A DNA stretch of 43,386 nt from a virus. The position numbers and the translations under genes were made by a program. Under the pieces are notes generated by a model that saw only the letters and a list, made by a program, of their open reading frames with translations, made no database searches and was not told the origin of the DNA. Each line of letters starts with the position of its first letter. Within the stretch, counting starts at the first letter, position 1. The stretch lies in IMG/VR virus record IMGVR_UViG_3300019758_000002, positions 1 through 43,386 of that record; one strand, given 5' to 3'. This document shows, piece after piece, positions 3,355 through 39,059 of the stretch.

Positions 3355-3381
3355 GAAAAGCCCCCACGTTAAGCGGGGGCT
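3355..3381 (-). terminator. Intrinsic terminator after the small-gene run
   Basis: On the minus strand the stem AGCCCCC/GGGGGCT has an eight- to nine-base loop and is followed by TTTTCTTTG. It ends the minus-strand operon that includes 3420-5909. Confidence 0.85.
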
Positions 3382-4210: not shown

Positions 4211-5599
4211 CTACCCATCACAACCCCCAACCATTGCCTCGGTGGGGTTCTGGGATGTTGCTATAAAATTTTCAATCCACTCACCCAACCGATGTATAGC
4301 AGGTACTGCCATGCTGTTTCCTAGAGATTGATACCTATGCCCGTCGGGACATTCCTCTACTGGCTTGCCGTTCCATGGAATGCGGGTGTAATTGTCCTCA
4401 AATCCTTGGAGGCGTTCACACTCGACGGGAGTTAAGCGGCGGATTTTAGACGTTGAAATACATTGATTCACAACTCCACCGCCTGAACCACTTCGTAAAC
4501 TAGCCGCATCATTTTGAGTAAAAGCAATTAGGTCAGATGCCCCTTTATAGTCCCTAGCGTTTACCATACTAGCTACAGGACTAGTCCCATATTCACTACT
4601 TGATTGGCGGTCGAACGTTTGTACAAGTCCAGCCCCACCCTGTGAGAATAGTTCCTGATTACTAGCACCGATACCTCCCGTGTTATGGGACTGACTTAAG
4701 GACGGGTGGGGTCCACCTTCCCAGTGAGAAACAATATTTTGTCCGCGGTCAGCACATGCACTTAAATCATGCCTTGCACTTATCGTTCCAGCTACTTCCC
4801 CATATTGAGAAACTACGAAATGGTTTTGAGCTGCGCCCTCTGGTCTTCCTCCCGCACCACCTGTAAAAGAGCATCGGCTAATTGTGCCGGCAACGTCTTC
4901 CCTCGTTTTTCTGCTCGGCGGAGTATCCCGGCGCATGCAGCCGCACTCAAAAAGTATTTCTCTGGGATCTGCCCCGTTTCGAGGACTTGCCATAACGAAC
5001 ACACGCTTGCGTCGCTGGGCCAATCCGAAAAACTGAGCGTCAAGCACCCGCCATGCAATTGTTCTTTTGGGACCAGCAACCCAACCTGAGTGGGGCCACT
5101 TTGGAATATGTCTCCGTGTTTTTCTATCCCATCTCCAAAATTTCGAACTCTTGCCCATTTGCGGGACTGGTCCGGGGAAAACAGTTTCTCTGTGCCCGGA
5201 CAATGCTCCGAGAAAGCATCCGAAGGCGTTATCCCTGGTGCTGAGTACTCCGGGAACGTTTTCCCAAATAGCGAAAGCTGGCTTGATTGCATCACATAAT
5301 TCCACAAATTTTAGAGTAAGGTTCCCACGTTCATCGTCCAGAGACCTACGCTTTCCAGCTACTGAAAAAGACTGGCACGGAGTTCCGCCGATAAGCACAT
5401 CCACTTTCCCGGCGTATTTGGAACCGTCGATTTTGGTCATGTCTCCCAGATTCGGAACATCGGGATAATGATGCTGAAGGACGGCACTAGGGAAGGGCTC
5501 TATTTCAGAGAAAAAAATCGGTTCCCATCCCAATGGCCCCCAAGCGGCACTAGGGGCTTCAATCCCGGAACATACGGAGGCATAGCGAAGATTAAGCAT
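4211..5599 (-). CDS. DNA (cytosine-5) methyltransferase
   Basis: This 462-aa enzyme transfers a methyl group from SAM to C5 of cytosine, probably shielding phage DNA from host restriction. Motif I ASVCSGIE lies at 7-14, the catalytic PCQ at 74-76 (nucleophile Cys75), ENV at 113-115, QRRKR at 195-199, and motifs IX-X as RRLTPVECERLQGF and SLGNSMAVP near the C-terminus. The long target-recognition region contains two copies of VAGTIS about 30 residues apart. The start at 5599 precedes motif I directly and overlaps the upstream gene by 8 bp. An earlier ATG would only add the alternative frame of that gene. Confidence 0.93.
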   Translation of the reverse strand: MLNLRYASVCSGIEAPSAAWGPLGWEPIFFSEIEPFPSAVLQHHYPDVPNLGDMTKIDGSKYAGKVDVLIGGTPCQSFSVAGKRRSLDDERGNLTLKFVELCDAIKPAFAIWENVPGVLSTRDNAFGCFLGALSGHRETVFPGPVPQMGKSSKFWRWDRKTRRHIPKWPHSGWVAGPKRTIAWRVLDAQFFGLAQRRKRVFVMASPRNGADPREILFECGCMRRDTPPSRKTREDVAGTISRCSFTGGAGGRPEGAAQNHFVVSQYGEVAGTISARHDLSACADRGQNIVSHWEGGPHPSLSQSHNTGGIGASNQELFSQGGAGLVQTFDRQSSSEYGTSPVASMVNARDYKGASDLIAFTQNDAASLRSGSGGGVVNQCISTSKIRRLTPVECERLQGFEDNYTRIPWNGKPVEECPDGHRYQSLGNSMAVPAIHRLGEWIENFIATSQNPTEAMVGGCDG

Positions 5600-5909
5600 T
5601 TTTCCGCCACCCTTCCGGTTTCTCGCACCGCTTAGCCTTGGCAATCTCAACACGGTTACGGATGATTTCATCATCTCTTTTTGTAACACACCTACCGCAA
5701 ATATACCCAGACCCATCATCCCGCATGTCCTCAACCTCTCCCAGTTTCCCGCACGAAGAGCAGGAAAGAATGTCATACTGGCAGAGCTTCGACCGCAAAA
5801 GCTCGCGGAGCATAGCCGACCAATTTCCGTTGTGTTCAGAGTTGGCAACTATTTGACCGTACTTGATGTAATCTTCTGGCATCGTGAACGATTTTGACAC
5901 TGTAATCAT
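5592..5909 (-). CDS. RHH-like protein with C-terminal zinc ribbon
   Basis: A 105-aa protein with an RHH-like N-terminus (ITVSKSFTMPEDYIKYG, then an NWSAMLRELLRSKL helix) and a zinc ribbon with CSSCG at about 50-54 and CGRC at about 71-74. It has a strong AAAGGAGG ribosome site and sits directly behind a promoter containing a perfect palindrome. Autoregulation through that palindrome, together with the methyltransferase gene, is plausible. Confidence 0.7.
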   Translation of the reverse strand: MITVSKSFTMPEDYIKYGQIVANSEHNGNWSAMLRELLRSKLCQYDILSCSSCGKLGEVEDMRDDGSGYICGRCVTKRDDEIIRNRVEIAKAKRCEKPEGWRKNA

Positions 5910-5934
5910 TTTTCAACCTCCTTTTGTTTCACTC

Positions 5935-5963
5935 ACAATATTATAACAATATTATATTGTCAA
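5935..5963 (-). promoter_or_regulatory. Promoter with embedded palindromic operator
   Basis: TTGACA (5958-5963), a 17-bp spacer and TATTGT (5935-5940) form a good promoter for the RHH-zinc ribbon/methyltransferase genes. The spacer contains the perfect palindrome ACAATATTATATTGT (5946-5960), and ACAATATTATA is also repeated in tandem (5935-5945, 5946-5956). A repressor bound there would block both promoter boxes. Confidence 0.75.
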
Positions 5964-5974
5964 AAGAAAAGGGT

Positions 5975-6005
5975 AAAAAAAAGCCCCGGCTTTTAAACCG
6001 AGGCT
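5975..6005 (-). terminator. Terminator of the small RNA
   Basis: On the minus strand AGCCTCGG pairs with CCGGGGCT (one G-U) around an eight-base AT loop and is followed by eight T. It separates the small RNA from the promoter of the methyltransferase operon 12 bp downstream. Confidence 0.9.
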
Positions 6006-6151
6006 GGTTGATCTATCGTATTTGTACCGCGCCCCTTATTTACGAGGCGCGGCAGTCAAACAGGGTGTTCGGGGTCGGGATGGGAGGAAGCCGTCACCCG
6101 ATCTACGAAAGGAGGTGTGTACGGTAGGAAATCTTTTATACTGATCAACAT
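5975..6151 (-). ncRNA. Structured small RNA carrying an anti-Shine-Dalgarno sequence
   Basis: The region is bounded by a promoter (6158-6186) and a terminator (5975-6005) and has no credible frame. The predicted transcript is about 177 nt. A long-range helix GTTGATC (6149-6143) pairs with GATCAAC (6013-6007), extended by GTAT (6141-6138) with ATAC (6021-6018). Inside is a GC-rich hairpin CCGCGCC/GGCGCGG (6052-6046 with 6033-6027). At 6117-6108 it reads CACCTCCTTT, the 3' end of bacterial 16S rRNA. It could bind phage ribosome sites or compete for them. The existence of the transcript is inferred from signals, and the function is speculation. Confidence 0.6.
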
Positions 6152-6157
6152 GTATAG

Positions 6158-6186
6158 ACTCTACAGGTTTTTACGGGTTTGGTCAA
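6158..6186 (-). promoter_or_regulatory. Promoter of the small RNA
   Basis: TTGACC (6181-6186), 17-bp spacer and TAGAGT (6158-6163) on the minus strand. Transcription should begin near 6151, just before the 5' arm of the closing helix. No start codon with a ribosome site follows. Confidence 0.7.
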
Positions 6187-6222: not shown

Positions 6223-6336
6223 CTATCCGGTCAACCCTTTCCAGAATCCTTTTAAAAAAGGAATTACAATTAATTCTGACAAAGCATTGCCGACCAATAC
6301 CGCCCAGAAGATACCCCAAAAGTCTAGATCTATCAC
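6223..6336 (-). CDS. Small membrane peptide, 37 aa
   Basis: This GTG start has an AAGGAGGGGGAG ribosome site and overlaps the upstream stop as GTGA. The peptide has one hydrophobic stretch (DFWGIFWAVLVGNALSELIV) and ends with GFWKGLTG. It is the last of a chain of tiny coupled genes, just before the small-RNA promoter. A role in lysis or membrane interference is possible but not shown. Confidence 0.5.
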   Translation of the reverse strand: MIDLDFWGIFWAVLVGNALSELIVIPFLKGFWKGLTG

Positions 6337-8691: not shown

Positions 8692-8722
8692 CCCCGCCAG
8701 CTTATGTTGGCGGGTTTTTTTG
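8692..8722 (+). terminator. Terminator of the plus-strand moron
   Basis: CCCGCCA (8693-8699) pairs with TGGCGGG (8708-8714) around an eight-base loop, followed by seven T. It lacks a T tract on the minus strand and overlaps the 3' end of the peptide gene at 8702-8818. Confidence 0.9.
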
Positions 8723-8818
8723 TGCGAGGCGGTTGGGGTTGACGAGTGGTGAGCTAGCGTGGGCCTGTATTCCAGCCATGAGACACACAAAAACTATTGC
8801 AAAAATTGCTTTCTTCAT
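8702..8818 (-). CDS. Small secreted peptide with signal sequence, 38 aa
   Basis: A strong AAAGGAGG ribosome site precedes an ATG. The peptide MKKAIFAIVFVCLMAGIQAHA ends in a good signal peptidase I site (AHA-S), leaving 17 residues rich in Pro and Asn. It follows the holin-like gene directly. The signal part resembles the 22-aa lipopeptide at 6476-6544 (MKTAIFAIIFLCLAAG), which suggests that the two are related by duplication. Confidence 0.55.
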   Translation of the reverse strand: MKKAIFAIVFVCLMAGIQAHASSPLVNPNRLAQKNPPT

Positions 8819-21829: not shown

Positions 21830-24800
21830 TTACCCCCAAAAGGTTAAATAAATTTTCCCTTCGTTTATGTTCCCAACCCGCACAGTCATTTTATTAGTAG
21901 TGGGATTGTATGAAAACTCTGAATTGTCGATACTCACGATGTTCCCGCCAACCAATCCAACAACGGAGTGTTGTCCTATTTCAACATCGGAAGGCACATC
22001 GAGGTCAAACTCATAGTTTTGGCCAGTAATTCCGCTGAATGGAATAACACGTTGATCAGTTAGCAACTTGCGTTCATATGGCCCATTTATTAAATCTGTG
22101 GTGTCTCCAGCTTCGACCAACTCAGTAAACGTGACGGCCACATCAACCATGGGCCTAGAATCGCTCACACACTGCAAGAACGCCCCATCTGCCTTGCTTG
22201 CACTTGCCCTTAAGGCTACTCGGTCGTTGACTTCAAAGTCATGAGAATACGCAAACCTGTGCAAAACTTCTTTGCTGTTTGCTGGCACATTGAAAGTAAA
22301 TTCAGAGTCAACAAGCTTGGTAAATGTGTTCCCGTCCGGCGAAACTTCTGACCACCAAAATTTGACAGTGTTGTCAGAGCTTTGTTCATTCCACAGACGA
22401 AGTGTGGTTACCAGTTTAGCGCGCCCTTCATTACCAAATTTTAAAGCACCTTCTCCCCCCTTTGCTTGTGATCCGCTAATCTGGTTAACAGAATCATCTA
22501 GTTCAATATCTAATTTCCCTTTATCGGTTGGGATACCAACGGGCATCGGCAAACCTTGCACGCTAGGATTTATTGTATACCTCAAGGAAAAGTTGCCCTG
22601 TGTATTTTGCACAAATTCTTTGTACTCTTCGCTTTGGTATAAGTGAATTTCATTGAGCAACTCAGGGGCTTGTAATGCATATCCGGTAAATGCTGGCGAA
22701 ACGTCAACCTTAAGCTGCTTTAGTTTTAAGGTCACTGGTAATTGAGCAGCAACGGGATAGATTACAATGGCGTAGTTGTTAGCATCTGCAGGAACGACCA
22801 TGGTCTTTGTCAAAGTGTGGTCACCTGATACAACATCCTCAGAGACAAACAAGCTATCAGCCTGTGCCCAGTCGGTTTGGAACTCTAATTGACCGCCCCC
22901 GCCCCTTGTTGTGTAAATTTCAGGGGTATATTCGTCTGGTTTTCCTGTCCATTTCATCAATCCGACTCGGAACCCTGAGTCTTTATCAACAACAGTTGCG
23001 GTTACATTAATGTCCTTGCCTCGAAGCATAACCGTTTCTTCGGCAGAAAACACTTTACCATAGTTAAAGTCTGCCAAATGAACACCATCGTCTTGAATAT
23101 GGGTGTGCCCATCGACAACTCCAACTTTTAAGCCATTGAGGTTTATCAATCGCCAGCCGTTAACAGAAGTAAAATGTGTTCCTGCTGTGTAGGTCTTAGG
23201 AGATTCAGGACGTGAGTTAATCCAGTTAAGATTCATGCGGTCAACTCCTAAGTAGTGACTGCTAAACTCAATATTCTGGTCTGTGTCGTTCTCAAACTGG
23301 AGTAGGCCCAATCCTGATTTTTCGTCTGAGGACAAAGCCTGAATCATTATTCCGCTTGCCCCTTCTGTGCGGTCTGTTATCTCAAGAATATCATTGGTGA
23401 AGGAGTCCACAACATGTACGGTAAATTCTTGCAAACCCTTTGCATTGACTACGCCCATAACGTCCAGAATCCCAAGTTCTTGAAACTGTCTATAATGACG
23501 CTCCACAGCCATTGGCTGACCGTTTTTATCAAGCAAGTAACCAGTGGGTTCAAAAGGATTCACAGATTTGTTGTAAAGGTACAAACGTACAAACCCATCA
23601 CTAGGGGCTTTCCCTTTCATATGAATACGTGCAGCAATCAGATAGTCAGTACCGCCTGTGACGTTTGGGTCTAATTCGTCTGATTCCTGAATACCATAAG
23701 TCTTATCAGCTTTTCTAAGCTCAATATACGCCCCTTCTGGGACGACTATATCATCAAACCATATCGCGCCGTTGTGGTGGGACCCTGCTGTATTCTCGTA
23801 GCCCTGTGGAATTTTCCCTACGATGTCTTCGTTCTCCGCAAGATATGCCAGAAAAGAAGGCTGGTGCATTGGCTCGTAGGATCCGGGCTTAACCTCAAGA
23901 ATTACCGCTTCGTCCCCAGTCTGGTTAGGGTCAATATAAGTATTCAGTGGCGGCTGTAAAATTATCTCATTTGCTAAAGCACTTCCAAACTGCTGATTCG
24001 GTGCAGCCATATGGATATTCACACCGGCGGTAACTTCGGCTTCGTTTGCGCCCATTCCGCCGCTGTTGGGTATCTCGGTAACCATCATGCCCTTAATGTT
24101 CAGGCGTTCGACTCCGGCAACATCGCTGGTTCCATCGTCAATATTTATTCCTGATCCACCAGAACCACCGCCGGCAGACATATCAATCTGTGAAAGTTCA
24201 ACCCAATTATTGGCTTTCTTGTCTGCTGCAAACAAAGCCCACACATCAACATCAAGTTCGTACTGGCTTTGTCCTTCAATGGTTTGACCAGATGCACCGG
24301 GAAGCAAAGTAATCACTGGAGAATCAGAAGATGTTAATCCTTGAGTACGCACTGCTAAAAGAGTTCCTTCACGCACATTGATAAGGTTCTGCAAGGTCTG
24401 CGTCACACTGGCCGTGCCTTCGTAATCGAGCATGACGATGGTTGCGTCTGTGTCGATTAGAACGGCGTTACCGTTGGTGATGCTGTATTTGCGCACTTCC
24501 TCAAGGTCAGCAATTATTGCAGCTGGAATCTGAGGGTTACCCGGGTCACTCTCAAGTGCTGTAATAATCTCTTGAGCGGTAGGAAGACCATCGGCACGGG
24601 TAAAGAGTTTGTCGCTGAAATGTGTCTGAATCTCGTTGAAGGTGTGTAAGTGGTCTTTCAACTGAGCTTGAATGTCTCCTATGGTGTGCAACTGACCTGT
24701 CAAAAGGACTTGGATTGAAGACTTCAAAGAGGTGAGAGTATTAGGGAACACACCACCGTAGGCCAAGTCAAAATTTGTGCCGGACTTTACAAAAAGGCTT

Positions 24801-25801
24801 AATGTGTCTGATTGAGCTTGATATGAACTTGCCCCGTTAATTGTCTCACCTGCCGCAGCGAGAATGGTGACATAGTCGTCACGGTCGTTGTTTTCAATGG
24901 AAAAGATACAATCTTCCGGTGTGTTTGCTGGTATCTGAATCGCTTGTGCGCTGTCAGGCAAAACACGAATGTGAATATAGTACGCTTTTTGCTGATCGGT
25001 AGGCAGGGTCGGCACACCTCTATCATACCAAGAAAAGATTGGCAGACCTGAGCCAGATGTATCGGTTTTGATACGTTCAATTTCGGTCTTGTTTGCCGCA
25101 ATTTCAGTATCAAGAGCGGCCCTTTCATCCTCCAGCATAACTTTTTTATACTGGACGGGCACACCAGCTGGATTAGCTAAAGCAGCGTCTATATTCTGAG
25201 GGACACGTAAAGAACCATCTGGCGCACCTGCAACAACAGGAAAATGATTTCCGTCTGAATCGCTAAATATGGGACGGAGAATACTAGCATCGCCATGATC
25301 ACCGTCTTTTAAAGATGCATTGTAAAGCCCAAGCTCACCCGGTTGAATAATCGGCTCTTGTACTGCCTCGGTTAGTTTTACAGTATCTACCGTGGCTGAG
25401 TCGGAAATTTTAAATTTTTCAACCCATGAGCCGGAGACCCTACGCTCAAAAATTAGATAACCTGTAGACTGATCACGCCTAGCACGCATGGACAAGTCGG
25501 TGGACGGATCACCCCAATAAATAGTATTCAAATTAGTTGTTGAGCCATCAATTGCAATTTCAACCCAATATTGAGCATCATAAGAGGAGGGTCTATCTTG
25601 ACCATTCCAGTAGGCATATTTCAAATTGGATGTTCCAACAAAAATAAGGGTTTGCTTTCCAGATGAATTTTCAAGCAATGAGGGGGACGCAGAAAAATAT
25701 GCATCACGGTCAGAATCATTTTCAAAGGTAAATGTGTAAGCTGTTCGCAATCCACTTTTACAAGCATCTTCCAGCATAGCACAATCAAGTTGGGTAACCA
25801 T
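21830..25801 (-). CDS. Very large tail protein, 1323 aa
   Basis: The start at 25801 (MVTQLDCAMLEDACKSG) has GGAG upstream; an earlier in-frame ATG would translate the structured leader and is rejected. Residues 1-200 look like a sheet-rich domain with signs of carbohydrate-binding or laminin-G-like folds (YWVEIAIDGSTTNLNTIYWG). A long helical/beta middle contains a Gly/Ser linker (SAGGGSGGSGINIDD) and a beta-rich C-terminus follows. It is probably a host-recognition or side-fibre protein. I cannot name a domain with certainty. Confidence 0.72.
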   Translation of the reverse strand: MVTQLDCAMLEDACKSGLRTAYTFTFENDSDRDAYFSASPSLLENSSGKQTLIFVGTSNLKYAYWNGQDRPSSYDAQYWVEIAIDGSTTNLNTIYWGDPSTDLSMRARRDQSTGYLIFERRVSGSWVEKFKISDSATVDTVKLTEAVQEPIIQPGELGLYNASLKDGDHGDASILRPIFSDSDGNHFPVVAGAPDGSLRVPQNIDAALANPAGVPVQYKKVMLEDERAALDTEIAANKTEIERIKTDTSGSGLPIFSWYDRGVPTLPTDQQKAYYIHIRVLPDSAQAIQIPANTPEDCIFSIENNDRDDYVTILAAAGETINGASSYQAQSDTLSLFVKSGTNFDLAYGGVFPNTLTSLKSSIQVLLTGQLHTIGDIQAQLKDHLHTFNEIQTHFSDKLFTRADGLPTAQEIITALESDPGNPQIPAAIIADLEEVRKYSITNGNAVLIDTDATIVMLDYEGTASVTQTLQNLINVREGTLLAVRTQGLTSSDSPVITLLPGASGQTIEGQSQYELDVDVWALFAADKKANNWVELSQIDMSAGGGSGGSGINIDDGTSDVAGVERLNIKGMMVTEIPNSGGMGANEAEVTAGVNIHMAAPNQQFGSALANEIILQPPLNTYIDPNQTGDEAVILEVKPGSYEPMHQPSFLAYLAENEDIVGKIPQGYENTAGSHHNGAIWFDDIVVPEGAYIELRKADKTYGIQESDELDPNVTGGTDYLIAARIHMKGKAPSDGFVRLYLYNKSVNPFEPTGYLLDKNGQPMAVERHYRQFQELGILDVMGVVNAKGLQEFTVHVVDSFTNDILEITDRTEGASGIMIQALSSDEKSGLGLLQFENDTDQNIEFSSHYLGVDRMNLNWINSRPESPKTYTAGTHFTSVNGWRLINLNGLKVGVVDGHTHIQDDGVHLADFNYGKVFSAEETVMLRGKDINVTATVVDKDSGFRVGLMKWTGKPDEYTPEIYTTRGGGGQLEFQTDWAQADSLFVSEDVVSGDHTLTKTMVVPADANNYAIVIYPVAAQLPVTLKLKQLKVDVSPAFTGYALQAPELLNEIHLYQSEEYKEFVQNTQGNFSLRYTINPSVQGLPMPVGIPTDKGKLDIELDDSVNQISGSQAKGGEGALKFGNEGRAKLVTTLRLWNEQSSDNTVKFWWSEVSPDGNTFTKLVDSEFTFNVPANSKEVLHRFAYSHDFEVNDRVALRASASKADGAFLQCVSDSRPMVDVAVTFTELVEAGDTTDLINGPYERKLLTDQRVIPFSGITGQNYEFDLDVPSDVEIGQHSVVGLVGGNIVSIDNSEFSYNPTTNKMTVRVGNINEGKIYLTFWG

Positions 25802-25817
25802 TTTAGCTCCTGTAAAA

Positions 25818-25922
25818 CAAAAGCCCTTACGAATCTGCACTGCTGTCAAAGTGCATCGTAAGGGCTTGTGCCTGCTGTCTGGCCTGTCGGAGGTGGGCAA
25901 GGATGGTGACAGCAACCATCCT
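25818..25922 (-). promoter_or_regulatory. Two-hairpin leader with complementary loops and attenuator-like terminator
   Basis: On the minus strand, hairpin A is AGGATGGT/ACCATCCT (25922-25915 with 25907-25900), loop TGCTGTC. Hairpin B is AAGCCCTTACGA/TCGTAAGGGCTT (25867-25856 with 25832-25821) with an inner TGCACT/AGTGCA stem and loop TTGACAGC. GCTGTC in loop A and GACAGC in loop B are perfectly complementary over six bases. Hairpin B is followed by TTTTGTTTT, as in a terminator, and then the CAGGAG ribosome site of the large tail gene. Confidence 0.65.
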
Positions 25923-25985
25923 GTACAGTCGCGAACTGCGCCCACACTTGAACGAACAGATGTGTTATATTTTAAGCCGTCAAGA

Positions 25986-28319: not shown

Positions 28320-30916
28320 TATCTAAAACCTCCGCCTCTTTTGATTACACTGCTCGGTTTAATAAAATATTCTTGCCCATACTCTTTTTGCATCCTGCGT
28401 TCAGTCCTACGGAGAGTACCGGGAGAAAGCATTTCTCGCACATGAAAAAGCATGGCATAATCCAAAGCCATTCGAGTATACCATAAATTTACAAAGGGGG
28501 TATTGTCTACCGCCATCCTTGCCGTGTCTGCCCCAACATCCTCTATATCTCCTCTGACTAGCTGTCCACCCAAACCAATGGCCTTGCCCAATGTCCCCGC
28601 AGTAGGTCCAGCCATGGTTTCAAGGAAACTTGAACCCACCCGGTTAACTTTTCCGAAAAGAAAATCGCCAAATATACCAGCTCCTCCAGACTGCACAGCT
28701 GCGGCAAACCATGTTTCAGGTTTACGGGGATCGCGAAATTCCTTACCTCTTGCAAAGTCTTTTGCAGTCATAGATATATACCCAAAAGCCACAGCCGCCG
28801 AAGCAAAGTGAGTTAATCCCAAAAGTTTTTGACTGTAGTTCGTATCTGCTGCTCGTTGCCACCTCTGTTCCCTCAGAATGCGCTGATAGTAAGCGATGGG
28901 AAAGCTTTTAAACTGAGTTAGAAAGCGCAAGGTTTCTCCCATGAATGTACCGGGACGAGAACCCCAAACCATAGCGGCTCTGGTCCTGTCGTCTGGCTCA
29001 ATGATGGCGTATTTGCATTCATCGGCGTAAAGCCCCATAAGTTGATTCTCAAGATCACGGCGGGCGCGGTCAATAGCCGCTGCTCTTGCAGCTTGATGGG
29101 CTTTGATGCTCCGGCCTTTTTGCGGCTTAACAGAGCGTAAGTTTTCATCAATCAAGGGCAAGATATCGTTAACTGAAAGGAGGTGTGCTTGATCCGGTAC
29201 AAGGTGGGTTAAGCCGTCCTCAGTTTTTACCGCCAACTTAGAGAGCGCGCTCCATTCTTTTTCTGTTATCCCGTTCCTACGCATAATAACTTGGATGTCG
29301 CGGCCCAGTTCGTTAAAATTCTTTCCAGCCATTCCACCAAGATCAGACGAAAGGGTATAGGTGAACCCTGCCTTGTGAGCCTCAGTCCATCCGGTAAGTC
29401 CTGAATATTTAAAGAATGTGTCCATCATGTCAGCCATTTTCCCGCGCATCTGATCTTGTGCATTAAATCGCATCATGATGTTACCCATTGAAGAGTCTAC
29501 AAAAGCACCTAAGCGGCGTGCGGTCTGGCGTTGCTGCTCCGGTGTGCCGCGCTCAGTCATAAACTTAAACGCCTTAACCCATGCGCTAAAGAGGTTGTCA
29601 CCTCGGTGACGGACAGCATTCGCTTTAACAAACACATCTGCAAAAGCAGAAAGGGTCGCCCCTCCCAACTTAGCCATTGATTGCACAGCCCTGATACCCG
29701 AAGAGATCCGCGCAGCTTTGATGTTAACGGGAGAAAAGGTTTCCCCTGACACCTCAGAATACCAACGAGCAAACTTTCCTGTTTGAACAAGACCACCTGT
29801 CCAGCTATTTTGTAAGGCTTCTATTTTTTTGCCTTTTGTCGCAACGTCAAGGTTAGACTCACGAATGGTGTTAATCTCCTTATCAATCAAGGACTTAATC
29901 ATAACTTCCGGGTTAGGTCCGAATGTTTCCATCAAAGATAATTTACGAGAACTTGAGTCAAGTTCACTTACCATGGCGTAGAACAAATTCCCCGTTCCGT
30001 AACGCTGGTGATAAGCGACCTCAGCATCCCCACCAGTGAAATGAAGCACACGAGATTTGCCCATGGACTTTGCTAGATTGGCGGGGCCTGTTGTAAGGCC
30101 CTGTTGACGCGCTGAGACTGTTTTATCTCTTCCCGTTACCAATGTTTCAAAAATATCATTTAGCGCAGCGTCAATAGCTTCTGGGTCGTTTTTAATGTCG
30201 GGAAAGGAACGTTCAACGTCCAGAATGTTTTTTGTGAACTCGACCCAACCAGCTTGACCTCCGTTATCGGCGGCAAGCATTCTGACCGGATCATGCGCGC
30301 GGGGAGTGCGTCCCTCAAGCTTTCCAATGTCCGCCCCTGCCTTGTTTAATCGTTGCCGTGCAAGTTCTGAATAATTGGTCATTACCTCGGCAACCTGACG
30401 AGCTGTTTCATCGCCGGTACTTCCCGGCTCGACCATTTCACGCATTGCTTGATAAGAAAAGTCCATGTCCTTTTGAATAAGGTCTTGCGCCCCGTCAATT
30501 TTTTCAAGATCGTTTGCCATTCCACCAATCCATGAATGCATAATAGAATCTTTGCGCACAGAGACAGATTGACGAGAGCCGGTAAACTTCTTAGGGCTAC
30601 CGACAAGGGAAGCTTCAAGAAAATCTTCAAAATCAAAACCTTCTTCTTTCACCGTGAGGGCCTGACCTTCAAGCCTTTTCCTTGAAATTATATTTAGGGC
30701 AGTAATCCTTTTTTGTTGGATAGCCGCCCTACGCGCCGCATCTGTTTTATTTGTCCACGCTTCGGCAAGTTTTTCGGTAGCATTGGCAATGTTTTCATCG
30801 GCTTTGAGGCGGTCCTTTTCCTTGACAAGTTCGTCAACAATTTGACTGGCTTCTTCTCTATCTAAGCCCTGATCTTGCAATGTTTTTATGCAATCTGCTT
30901 TACTAAGTGCTGCCAT
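28319..30916 (-). CDS. Large internal virion (ejection) protein, 865 aa
   Basis: A mostly helical protein in the position of the T7 gp16-type ejection protein and its relatives in BPP-1-like phages. The start is at 30916, one base after the stop of the preceding gene. The N-terminus has coiled-coil helices, the centre has Gly/Ala/Ser-rich segments, and the C-terminal third includes weakly hydrophobic stretches (FASAAVAFGYISMTAKDF) that could insert in membranes. It should leave the capsid with the DNA and help form the periplasmic channel. No transglycosylase motif is seen. Confidence 0.72.
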   Translation of the reverse strand: MAALSKADCIKTLQDQGLDREEASQIVDELVKEKDRLKADENIANATEKLAEAWTNKTDAARRAAIQQKRITALNIISRKRLEGQALTVKEEGFDFEDFLEASLVGSPKKFTGSRQSVSVRKDSIMHSWIGGMANDLEKIDGAQDLIQKDMDFSYQAMREMVEPGSTGDETARQVAEVMTNYSELARQRLNKAGADIGKLEGRTPRAHDPVRMLAADNGGQAGWVEFTKNILDVERSFPDIKNDPEAIDAALNDIFETLVTGRDKTVSARQQGLTTGPANLAKSMGKSRVLHFTGGDAEVAYHQRYGTGNLFYAMVSELDSSSRKLSLMETFGPNPEVMIKSLIDKEINTIRESNLDVATKGKKIEALQNSWTGGLVQTGKFARWYSEVSGETFSPVNIKAARISSGIRAVQSMAKLGGATLSAFADVFVKANAVRHRGDNLFSAWVKAFKFMTERGTPEQQRQTARRLGAFVDSSMGNIMMRFNAQDQMRGKMADMMDTFFKYSGLTGWTEAHKAGFTYTLSSDLGGMAGKNFNELGRDIQVIMRRNGITEKEWSALSKLAVKTEDGLTHLVPDQAHLLSVNDILPLIDENLRSVKPQKGRSIKAHQAARAAAIDRARRDLENQLMGLYADECKYAIIEPDDRTRAAMVWGSRPGTFMGETLRFLTQFKSFPIAYYQRILREQRWQRAADTNYSQKLLGLTHFASAAVAFGYISMTAKDFARGKEFRDPRKPETWFAAAVQSGGAGIFGDFLFGKVNRVGSSFLETMAGPTAGTLGKAIGLGGQLVRGDIEDVGADTARMAVDNTPFVNLWYTRMALDYAMLFHVREMLSPGTLRRTERRMQKEYGQEYFIKPSSVIKRGGGFR

Positions 30917-38120: not shown

Positions 38121-39059
38121 TTAAACGTTCTGTTCGGTTCCATCGAGGAAGTTGTAGCTTGTCACAACCGGGACACCGTTCCAACTCGCAACCTGACGAT
38201 CGTATTTCTTGTTTGCCGGATCCATCTGCAAAGCAGCAACCTTGTACTTAAACAAGCGGTTAAGCACTTTCTGGTGCATAAACAGCTGTGTGTAAGCGTC
38301 TGTTGCGCGAATGTCGGAAAGCATGTCGTCAATTTTAGTAGCAATCAGCTCTCTCGAAGCCTCAGTTGCAAAGTCTGCGGTAATGTCAATGTTGACAAGA
38401 GCACCAATCGTCTTAGGAGAAGCCATCTGCACACCGAGGTGAGATTTGTAGCGTCCACCGTAGACAAGAACGCCGTTAGAGTTCTTGTAAATAGAACCAC
38501 CGTTGATCGGGCTGAAATTGAGCATTGCGCCCTGTCCAAATCCTTTAGGATTATACAACCCACAGGTAGTGCCCGGCTCGTAACGAACGGCGATGATTGA
38601 ATAGTTCTGGTTTGAAGAGCCAGTGCCCTTGTACAAAAGCTTTTTGTTTGCCTCTCCGTTTTTGATAACAAAAGCGCGAAGACGATTGTAAAGGACATGC
38701 TTCTCTGCATCCATGCCAAATTTAGAAAAGATCGACTGTTCTTTTTTGGCAAGGTAAGCCCCCATTCCACCAAACTGCTGAATCGCATCCTCACCCCTTT
38801 CGATGATTCCACCGAACAAATCAAGGTCTACCTTTTTCAGTTCGGTATCAACATCGATAGCGGAAAGAGGGGCATCCATTTTAACGAGAGAAGGACCATT
38901 GATCTCGGTTACCTCTTCGTAGGCGTTCCAAAGCCCATGGCTTGCCTCTTCAAAAGGCATGGAATCAATAATTGGTGCTTCTTCAGTCAGGTAATTAACC
39001 TGAAGCGGCTGCTTCTTGGCAAGCTCGACTGAAATTTCCTTAAGTGTTTTTGTAGCCAT
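38121..39059 (-). CDS. Major capsid protein
   Basis: A 312-aa shell subunit by position (after scaffold, before cement) and size. It begins MATKTLKEISVELAKKQPLQ and has a long helical segment (DAIQQFGGMGAYLAKKEQ) and a late QLFMHQKVLNRLFKYK helix, in keeping with the HK97-fold capsids of BPP-1-like phages. An AAGGAG site is present upstream. Confidence 0.87.
   Translation of the reverse strand: MATKTLKEISVELAKKQPLQVNYLTEEAPIIDSMPFEEASHGLWNAYEEVTEINGPSLVKMDAPLSAIDVDTELKKVDLDLFGGIIERGEDAIQQFGGMGAYLAKKEQSIFSKFGMDAEKHVLYNRLRAFVIKNGEANKKLLYKGTGSSNQNYSIIAVRYEPGTTCGLYNPKGFGQGAMLNFSPINGGSIYKNSNGVLVYGGRYKSHLGVQMASPKTIGALVNIDITADFATEASRELIATKIDDMLSDIRATDAYTQLFMHQKVLNRLFKYKVAALQMDPANKKYDRQVASWNGVPVVTSYNFLDGTEQNV

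Follow-up and report, generated by a model that had tools for sequence, protein, structure and literature searches.

The C-rich seeds of RNAIII and similar small RNAs (sRNAs) block Shine-Dalgarno (SD) sequences. RNAIII of Staphylococcus aureus has been cited as a comparison for C-rich seeds that act in this way (PMC3927594), and pairing through anti-SD seeds is an established mechanism of sRNA action (PMC10746234, PMC12559287). The alpha-r14 sRNAs of the Rhizobiales (NfeR1; SmelA075/SmelA099) silence mRNAs through anti-SD motifs that lie in unpaired regions and cover the ribosome site, and these RNAs fold into three (or four) hairpins whose loops all contain CCUCCUCCC (PMC3927594, PMC10746234). 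SisA-D of Caulobacter crescentus likely pair with many of their targets through a seed of 10 nt that bears an anti-SD signature (PMC12559287). Trans-acting sRNAs are also encoded by phages, among them c4 of P1/P7, sar of P22, PreS of lambda and VpdS; c4 base-pairs around a ribosome-binding site and thereby blocks translation, and none of the phage sRNAs in the table of a recent review is described with a seed resembling the 16S tail (PMC12197685).

Here we describe a candidate sRNA in a complete virus record of 43,386 bases, the whole of which is referred to below as the window. The candidate (5975-6151, minus strand; ~177 nt, with ends assumed from a promoter and a terminator) is contained in a 313-nt minus-strand interval between genes 6336-6223 and 5909-5592. 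A structured non-coding RNA ending at a terminator is well supported at this position by the folding statistics. Our preferred reading, held tentatively and at somewhat below an even chance, is that this phage non-coding RNA of ~177 nt acts in trans on ribosome-binding sites through one or more anti-SD seeds.

Results

The connector, tail and terminase genes of the virus record share ~30-48% identity with phages and prophages of Proteobacteria, a distant relationship, and no closer kin were found for the record. The last gene of the operon upstream of the candidate (6223-6336, minus) encodes a 37-aa hydrophobic peptide with a GTG start and the SD AGGAGG. The next gene downstream (5592-5909, minus; SD AAAGGAGG) encodes 105 aa with two CXXC pairs, for which no family match was found at E 0.001; its sole match, of 24 residues in locus L002, lies opposite a 360-aa ORF and was rejected as spurious. 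This gene has a separate putative promoter (5935-5963, minus; TTGACA-N17-TATTGT), and direct and inverted repeats, including two copies of ACAATATTATA, extend over it at 5935-5965 in an arrangement that looks like the operator of an autoregulated repressor.

Elsewhere in the window, one ORF (2024-2854, minus) begins with a region that matches terminase small subunit profiles and ends with one that matches HNH endonuclease profiles. Over 56% of its length, the protein of 21830-25945 (minus) shares 54% identity with a protein of Vibrio phage PVA1, and its C-terminal part matches an unannotated stretch of the same phage (54% identical); module exchange is suggested because the matches of the connector and tail genes are to other groups of phages. 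An unlisted 38-codon gene (8702-8817, minus) with the SD AAAGGAGG has a signal-peptide-like product (MKKAIFAIVFVCLMAGIQAHASSPLVNPNRLAQKNPPT) and is overlapped by a terminator-like hairpin.

The preliminary description of the candidate had called for a structure prediction, and the 177-nt RNA indeed folds beyond chance (predicted fold -61 kcal/mol, z -4.4 to -4.6 against shuffles). Among 1,154 scan windows covering both strands of the 43-kb record, the most extreme folding z (-7.2) was that of 5926-6071 (minus), which overlaps the candidate RNA, and the runner-up had a z of -6.3, individual values being rough because 25 shuffles were used per scan window. This signal is limited to the 3' half of the RNA, which consists of a GC hairpin and an intrinsic terminator, whereas the 5' 91 nt are unstructured (z +0.17). 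The GC hairpin had been proposed from inspection and is present in the model with 11 bp (6019-6062, minus; core GCCGCGCCTC/GGGGCGCGGT), the region 6009-6065 alone having a folding z of -5.0. A long-range helix of 7+4 bp, proposed at the same time, was recovered in part: GTTGATC (6143-6149, minus) is predicted to pair with GATCAAC (6007-6013, minus) at a probability >0.97, but the 4-bp GTAT/ATAC extension is not favoured, as GTAT prefers GTAC (pair probability 0.65-0.70). With the fold signal confined to the 3' half, the model thus has an open 5' arm whose base is closed by GTTGATC/GATCAAC.

Elsewhere in the window, the second most extreme z (-6.3) belongs to 38776-38921 (minus), which lies within the putative major capsid gene, on its sense strand. 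A strong fold on both strands at 25801-25946 coincides with the annotated start of ORF 21830-25945; it is probably a terminator, and the true start of this ORF may therefore be further downstream.

The strong terminator that had been claimed for the candidate is present (5974-6005, minus; 10-bp stem, run of 8 T), reading AGCCTCGGTTTAAAAGCCGGGGCT-TTTTTTT at 6005-5982, and provides the intrinsic termination looked for in a bacterial or phage sRNA. A transcript most likely does end here, and the quality of the terminator together with the strong folding indicates that the stretch is probably transcribed. The claim of a complete promoter fared less well. A sigma-70-like site, TTGACC-N17-TAGAGT (9/12 matches), does lie at the right place for an independent RNA (6186-6158, minus), but such sites occur at chance frequency, with no excess either locally (4 versus 3.1 +/- 1.9 expected) or in the first 20 kb (31 versus 26.5 +/- 5.2 expected). 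The candidate promoter is no better than chance in this respect, and transcription of the RNA as an independent unit from a promoter of its own is weakly supported by the sequence.

This bears on the main alternative, a strong contender that itself falls short of probable, according to which the stretch is the structured 3' UTR, with terminator, of the operon that lies upstream on the minus strand (last gene 6336-6223), set off from a separately promoted downstream gene, with the anti-SD match incidental. The upstream operon lies in order on the same strand, and the promoter at 5963-5935 and its gene follow directly past the terminator. A second strong terminator is found at 3381-3359 (minus), directly followed by a promoter-like TTGACG-17-TATTAT (3353-3325) and then by gene 3318-2941. 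The terminator-promoter-gene order at 6005/5963/5909 is thereby repeated at 3381/3353/3318, so that a new promoter directly past a terminator is nothing unusual on the minus strand, and a structured 3' UTR stays almost level in likelihood with an independent sRNA. Against the 3' UTR, the distance from the last stop codon to the terminator is ~217 nt, compared with ~38 at the 3381 module, and termination needs neither the extra strong hairpin nor the closing helix. The distance and the additional hairpin slightly favour the sRNA.

It is also conceivable, if improbable, that the minus strand carries a leaderless small gene whose terminator region accounts for the hairpins. The preliminary description saw no credible frame in the transcript and overlooked a 31-codon ORF, which opens with an ATG at the predicted transcription start (6151) and stays open to 6056. 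Its judgement holds nevertheless for this ORF, which has no SD and a codon score of -0.11, where true in-frame gene segments average +0.19 and wrong frames score about -0.07, in a test of low power for 31 codons. No PHROG match was found for the frame, and a coding minus frame in the candidate RNA is unlikely.

The 16S-like motif that first drew attention to the locus, CACCTCCTTTC, is present at 6117-6107 (minus) and is identical over 11 nt to the SD-pairing part of a 16S 3' tail. It is mostly unpaired in the model (mean unpaired probability 0.83), so that the predicted fold offers the accessible anti-SD stretch expected of a trans-acting sRNA with such a seed. Tails ending in CCTTTCT are found in many bacteria, while those of enteric gamma-proteobacteria end in CCTTA; the form compared here ends in CCTTTCT and may not be that of the host. 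An 11-nt match to the GGATCACCTCCTTTCTA tail arose in 0.045% (4.5e-4) of shuffles of the candidate RNA, a frequency to be read with the motif having been picked post hoc. The same sequence occurs at 29175-29185, inside a gene, and the 11-mer with at most one mismatch is not enriched in the whole window (2 versus 1.03 expected). A second CCTCC lies at 6083-6087 (minus), giving two in the RNA as compared with 0.33 in shuffles (p 0.039). As the motif is mostly unpaired, an anti-SD function of the RNA is possible under this model, although the folding signal leaves out the anti-SD arm.

The same identity, open in the model, could be read as a ribosome decoy, an RNA whose 16S-like tail would titrate SD sites or initiation factors across the whole infected cell. 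We consider this very unlikely: only the short SD-pairing core is in common, the preceding bases being ACA and not GGAT, no rRNA family matches the candidate RNA, and the RNA would have to be very abundant to act globally. We give next to no weight to the remaining explanation, named in the preliminary description as one that would overturn its proposal, that AAAGGAGGTG at 6108-6117 on the plus strand serves ribosomes translating a gene of that strand, the minus motif being merely its complement. Some CACCTCCTTTC matches in other viral contigs (e.g. L262, L263) do show an SD plus ATG on the opposite strand. At the present site no start codon is suitably spaced, the only one within reach being a GTG one base past GGAGG. 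The 97-aa frame from this GTG (6117) has a codon score of -0.14, like non-coding frames, and the two minus genes to which it lies antisense score +0.21 and +0.09. It is accordingly unlikely that a plus-strand gene uses AAAGGAGGTG, and with both the 31- and the 97-codon frames scoring like non-coding frames, the locus has the non-coding character expected of an sRNA.

Many genes of the virus had been thought to use AAAGGAGG sites that would pair with the RNA. This is true of three of the 45 starts examined (5909, 8817 and 4177); AGGAGG was found at 7/45 and an SD 4-mer at 28/45. When the 11-mer was kept fixed and its flanks were shuffled, pairing to the phage starts equalled or exceeded that observed in 38% of cases for the best site, 15% for the top five and 80% for the mean (p 0.38, 0.15 and 0.80), and preferential pairing with specific initiation regions was not found among these phage starts. 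Since shuffled flanks pair as well, there is no sign among the phage ribosome sites that target specificity has evolved. The SD AAAGGAGG of the neighbouring gene 5592-5909 could pair with the candidate RNA at 11/12 positions, a match that is close to that of any AAAGGAGG site. Pairing in cis, between the anti-SD motif and the SD of this next gene in a read-through RNA, was rejected as not robust (probability 0.12-0.58, depending on the assumed 5' end).

No homologue of the candidate was found by blastn of phages and of plasmids, by blastn and nhmmer over 249 loci, or by exact and gapped patterns in viral contigs. A covariance model (R1), built from the candidate sequence alone and thus weak for distant relatives, found none over ~2.75 Mb of kin and other loci, nor on six further loci and 23 records or genomes. 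Rfam 15 gave 0 matches at or above the gathering threshold, and the weak sub-threshold matches on the minus strand are located over the terminator. The best R1 match outside the window (20.5 bits), in Vibrio phage PVA1, was rejected because most of it lies within a 246-aa ORF and its best-aligned part is the terminator of that gene. Also discarded were five gapped-pattern matches with no R1 match at the pattern position, a 22-nt blast match of 91% identity in one record, too short to count, and a by-eye resemblance to 5S rRNA for which there was no Rfam match. Support from conservation and covariation is therefore absent, and the absence of homologues from the collections searched is itself weak evidence.

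Discussion

Computation shows that the stretch has a structured 3' half, a terminator and a motif that is mostly unpaired, and that it lacks a good coding frame. It is a fair sRNA candidate with one strong and unbiased support, the folding rank together with the terminator, and several weak ones. Under the preferred reading of a trans-acting RNA, transcription of the minus strand would run from just past 6158 to the terminator at 5974, and the closing helix and GC hairpin would stabilize the product. The open C-rich 5' arm would present CACCUCCUUUC and the second CCUCC as seeds, which may base-pair in trans with mRNAs of the phage and/or the host at ribosome-binding sites rich in purines. Such pairing would be expected to lower translation of the targets, and Hfq could possibly bind the U-tract of the terminator. 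In a bolder version, to which we attach little credence, the phage sRNA would carry in its open arm a copy of the 16S 3' tail of its host, compete with ribosomes for strong SD sites and so shift translation broadly during infection.

Characterized phage sRNAs are few. If the trans-acting reading is true, the candidate would combine an anti-SD seed with a phage-encoded sRNA, and a seed equal to the 16S tail would allow a test of whether a phage controls translation through competition for SD sites in trans. At present the candidate is an orphan, its virus being without a close relative in the searches made, and it serves mainly as a pointer for transcript mapping.

Among the systems outlined above, c4, sar, PreS and VpdS are likewise products of small RNA genes in phages, but they have defined targets and are mostly smaller than the candidate. 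RNAIII differs from it in size, structure and host, and the window is without an Rfam family match. The likeness to SisA-D is one of description; these are four chromosomal siblings in one genome, whereas the candidate is a single phage copy. Like the alpha-r14 RNAs, the candidate is, by prediction, a small non-coding RNA whose anti-SD motifs are left unpaired. It differs in being phage-encoded, with no homologues found, and in the placement of its motifs, one CACCUCCUUUC and one UCCUCCC sitting in the open arm and the predicted hairpins having no anti-SD loop. Three hairpins with CCUCCUCCC loops were not found in it, and CCTCCTCCC is absent from its sequence. The candidate is thus outside alpha-r14, having no CCUCCUCCC and a different predicted fold, and outside the Rfam families at the gathering threshold. 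It is plausibly a trans-acting sRNA with an anti-SD seed, a type that is already known from alpha-r14/NfeR1 and SisA-D.
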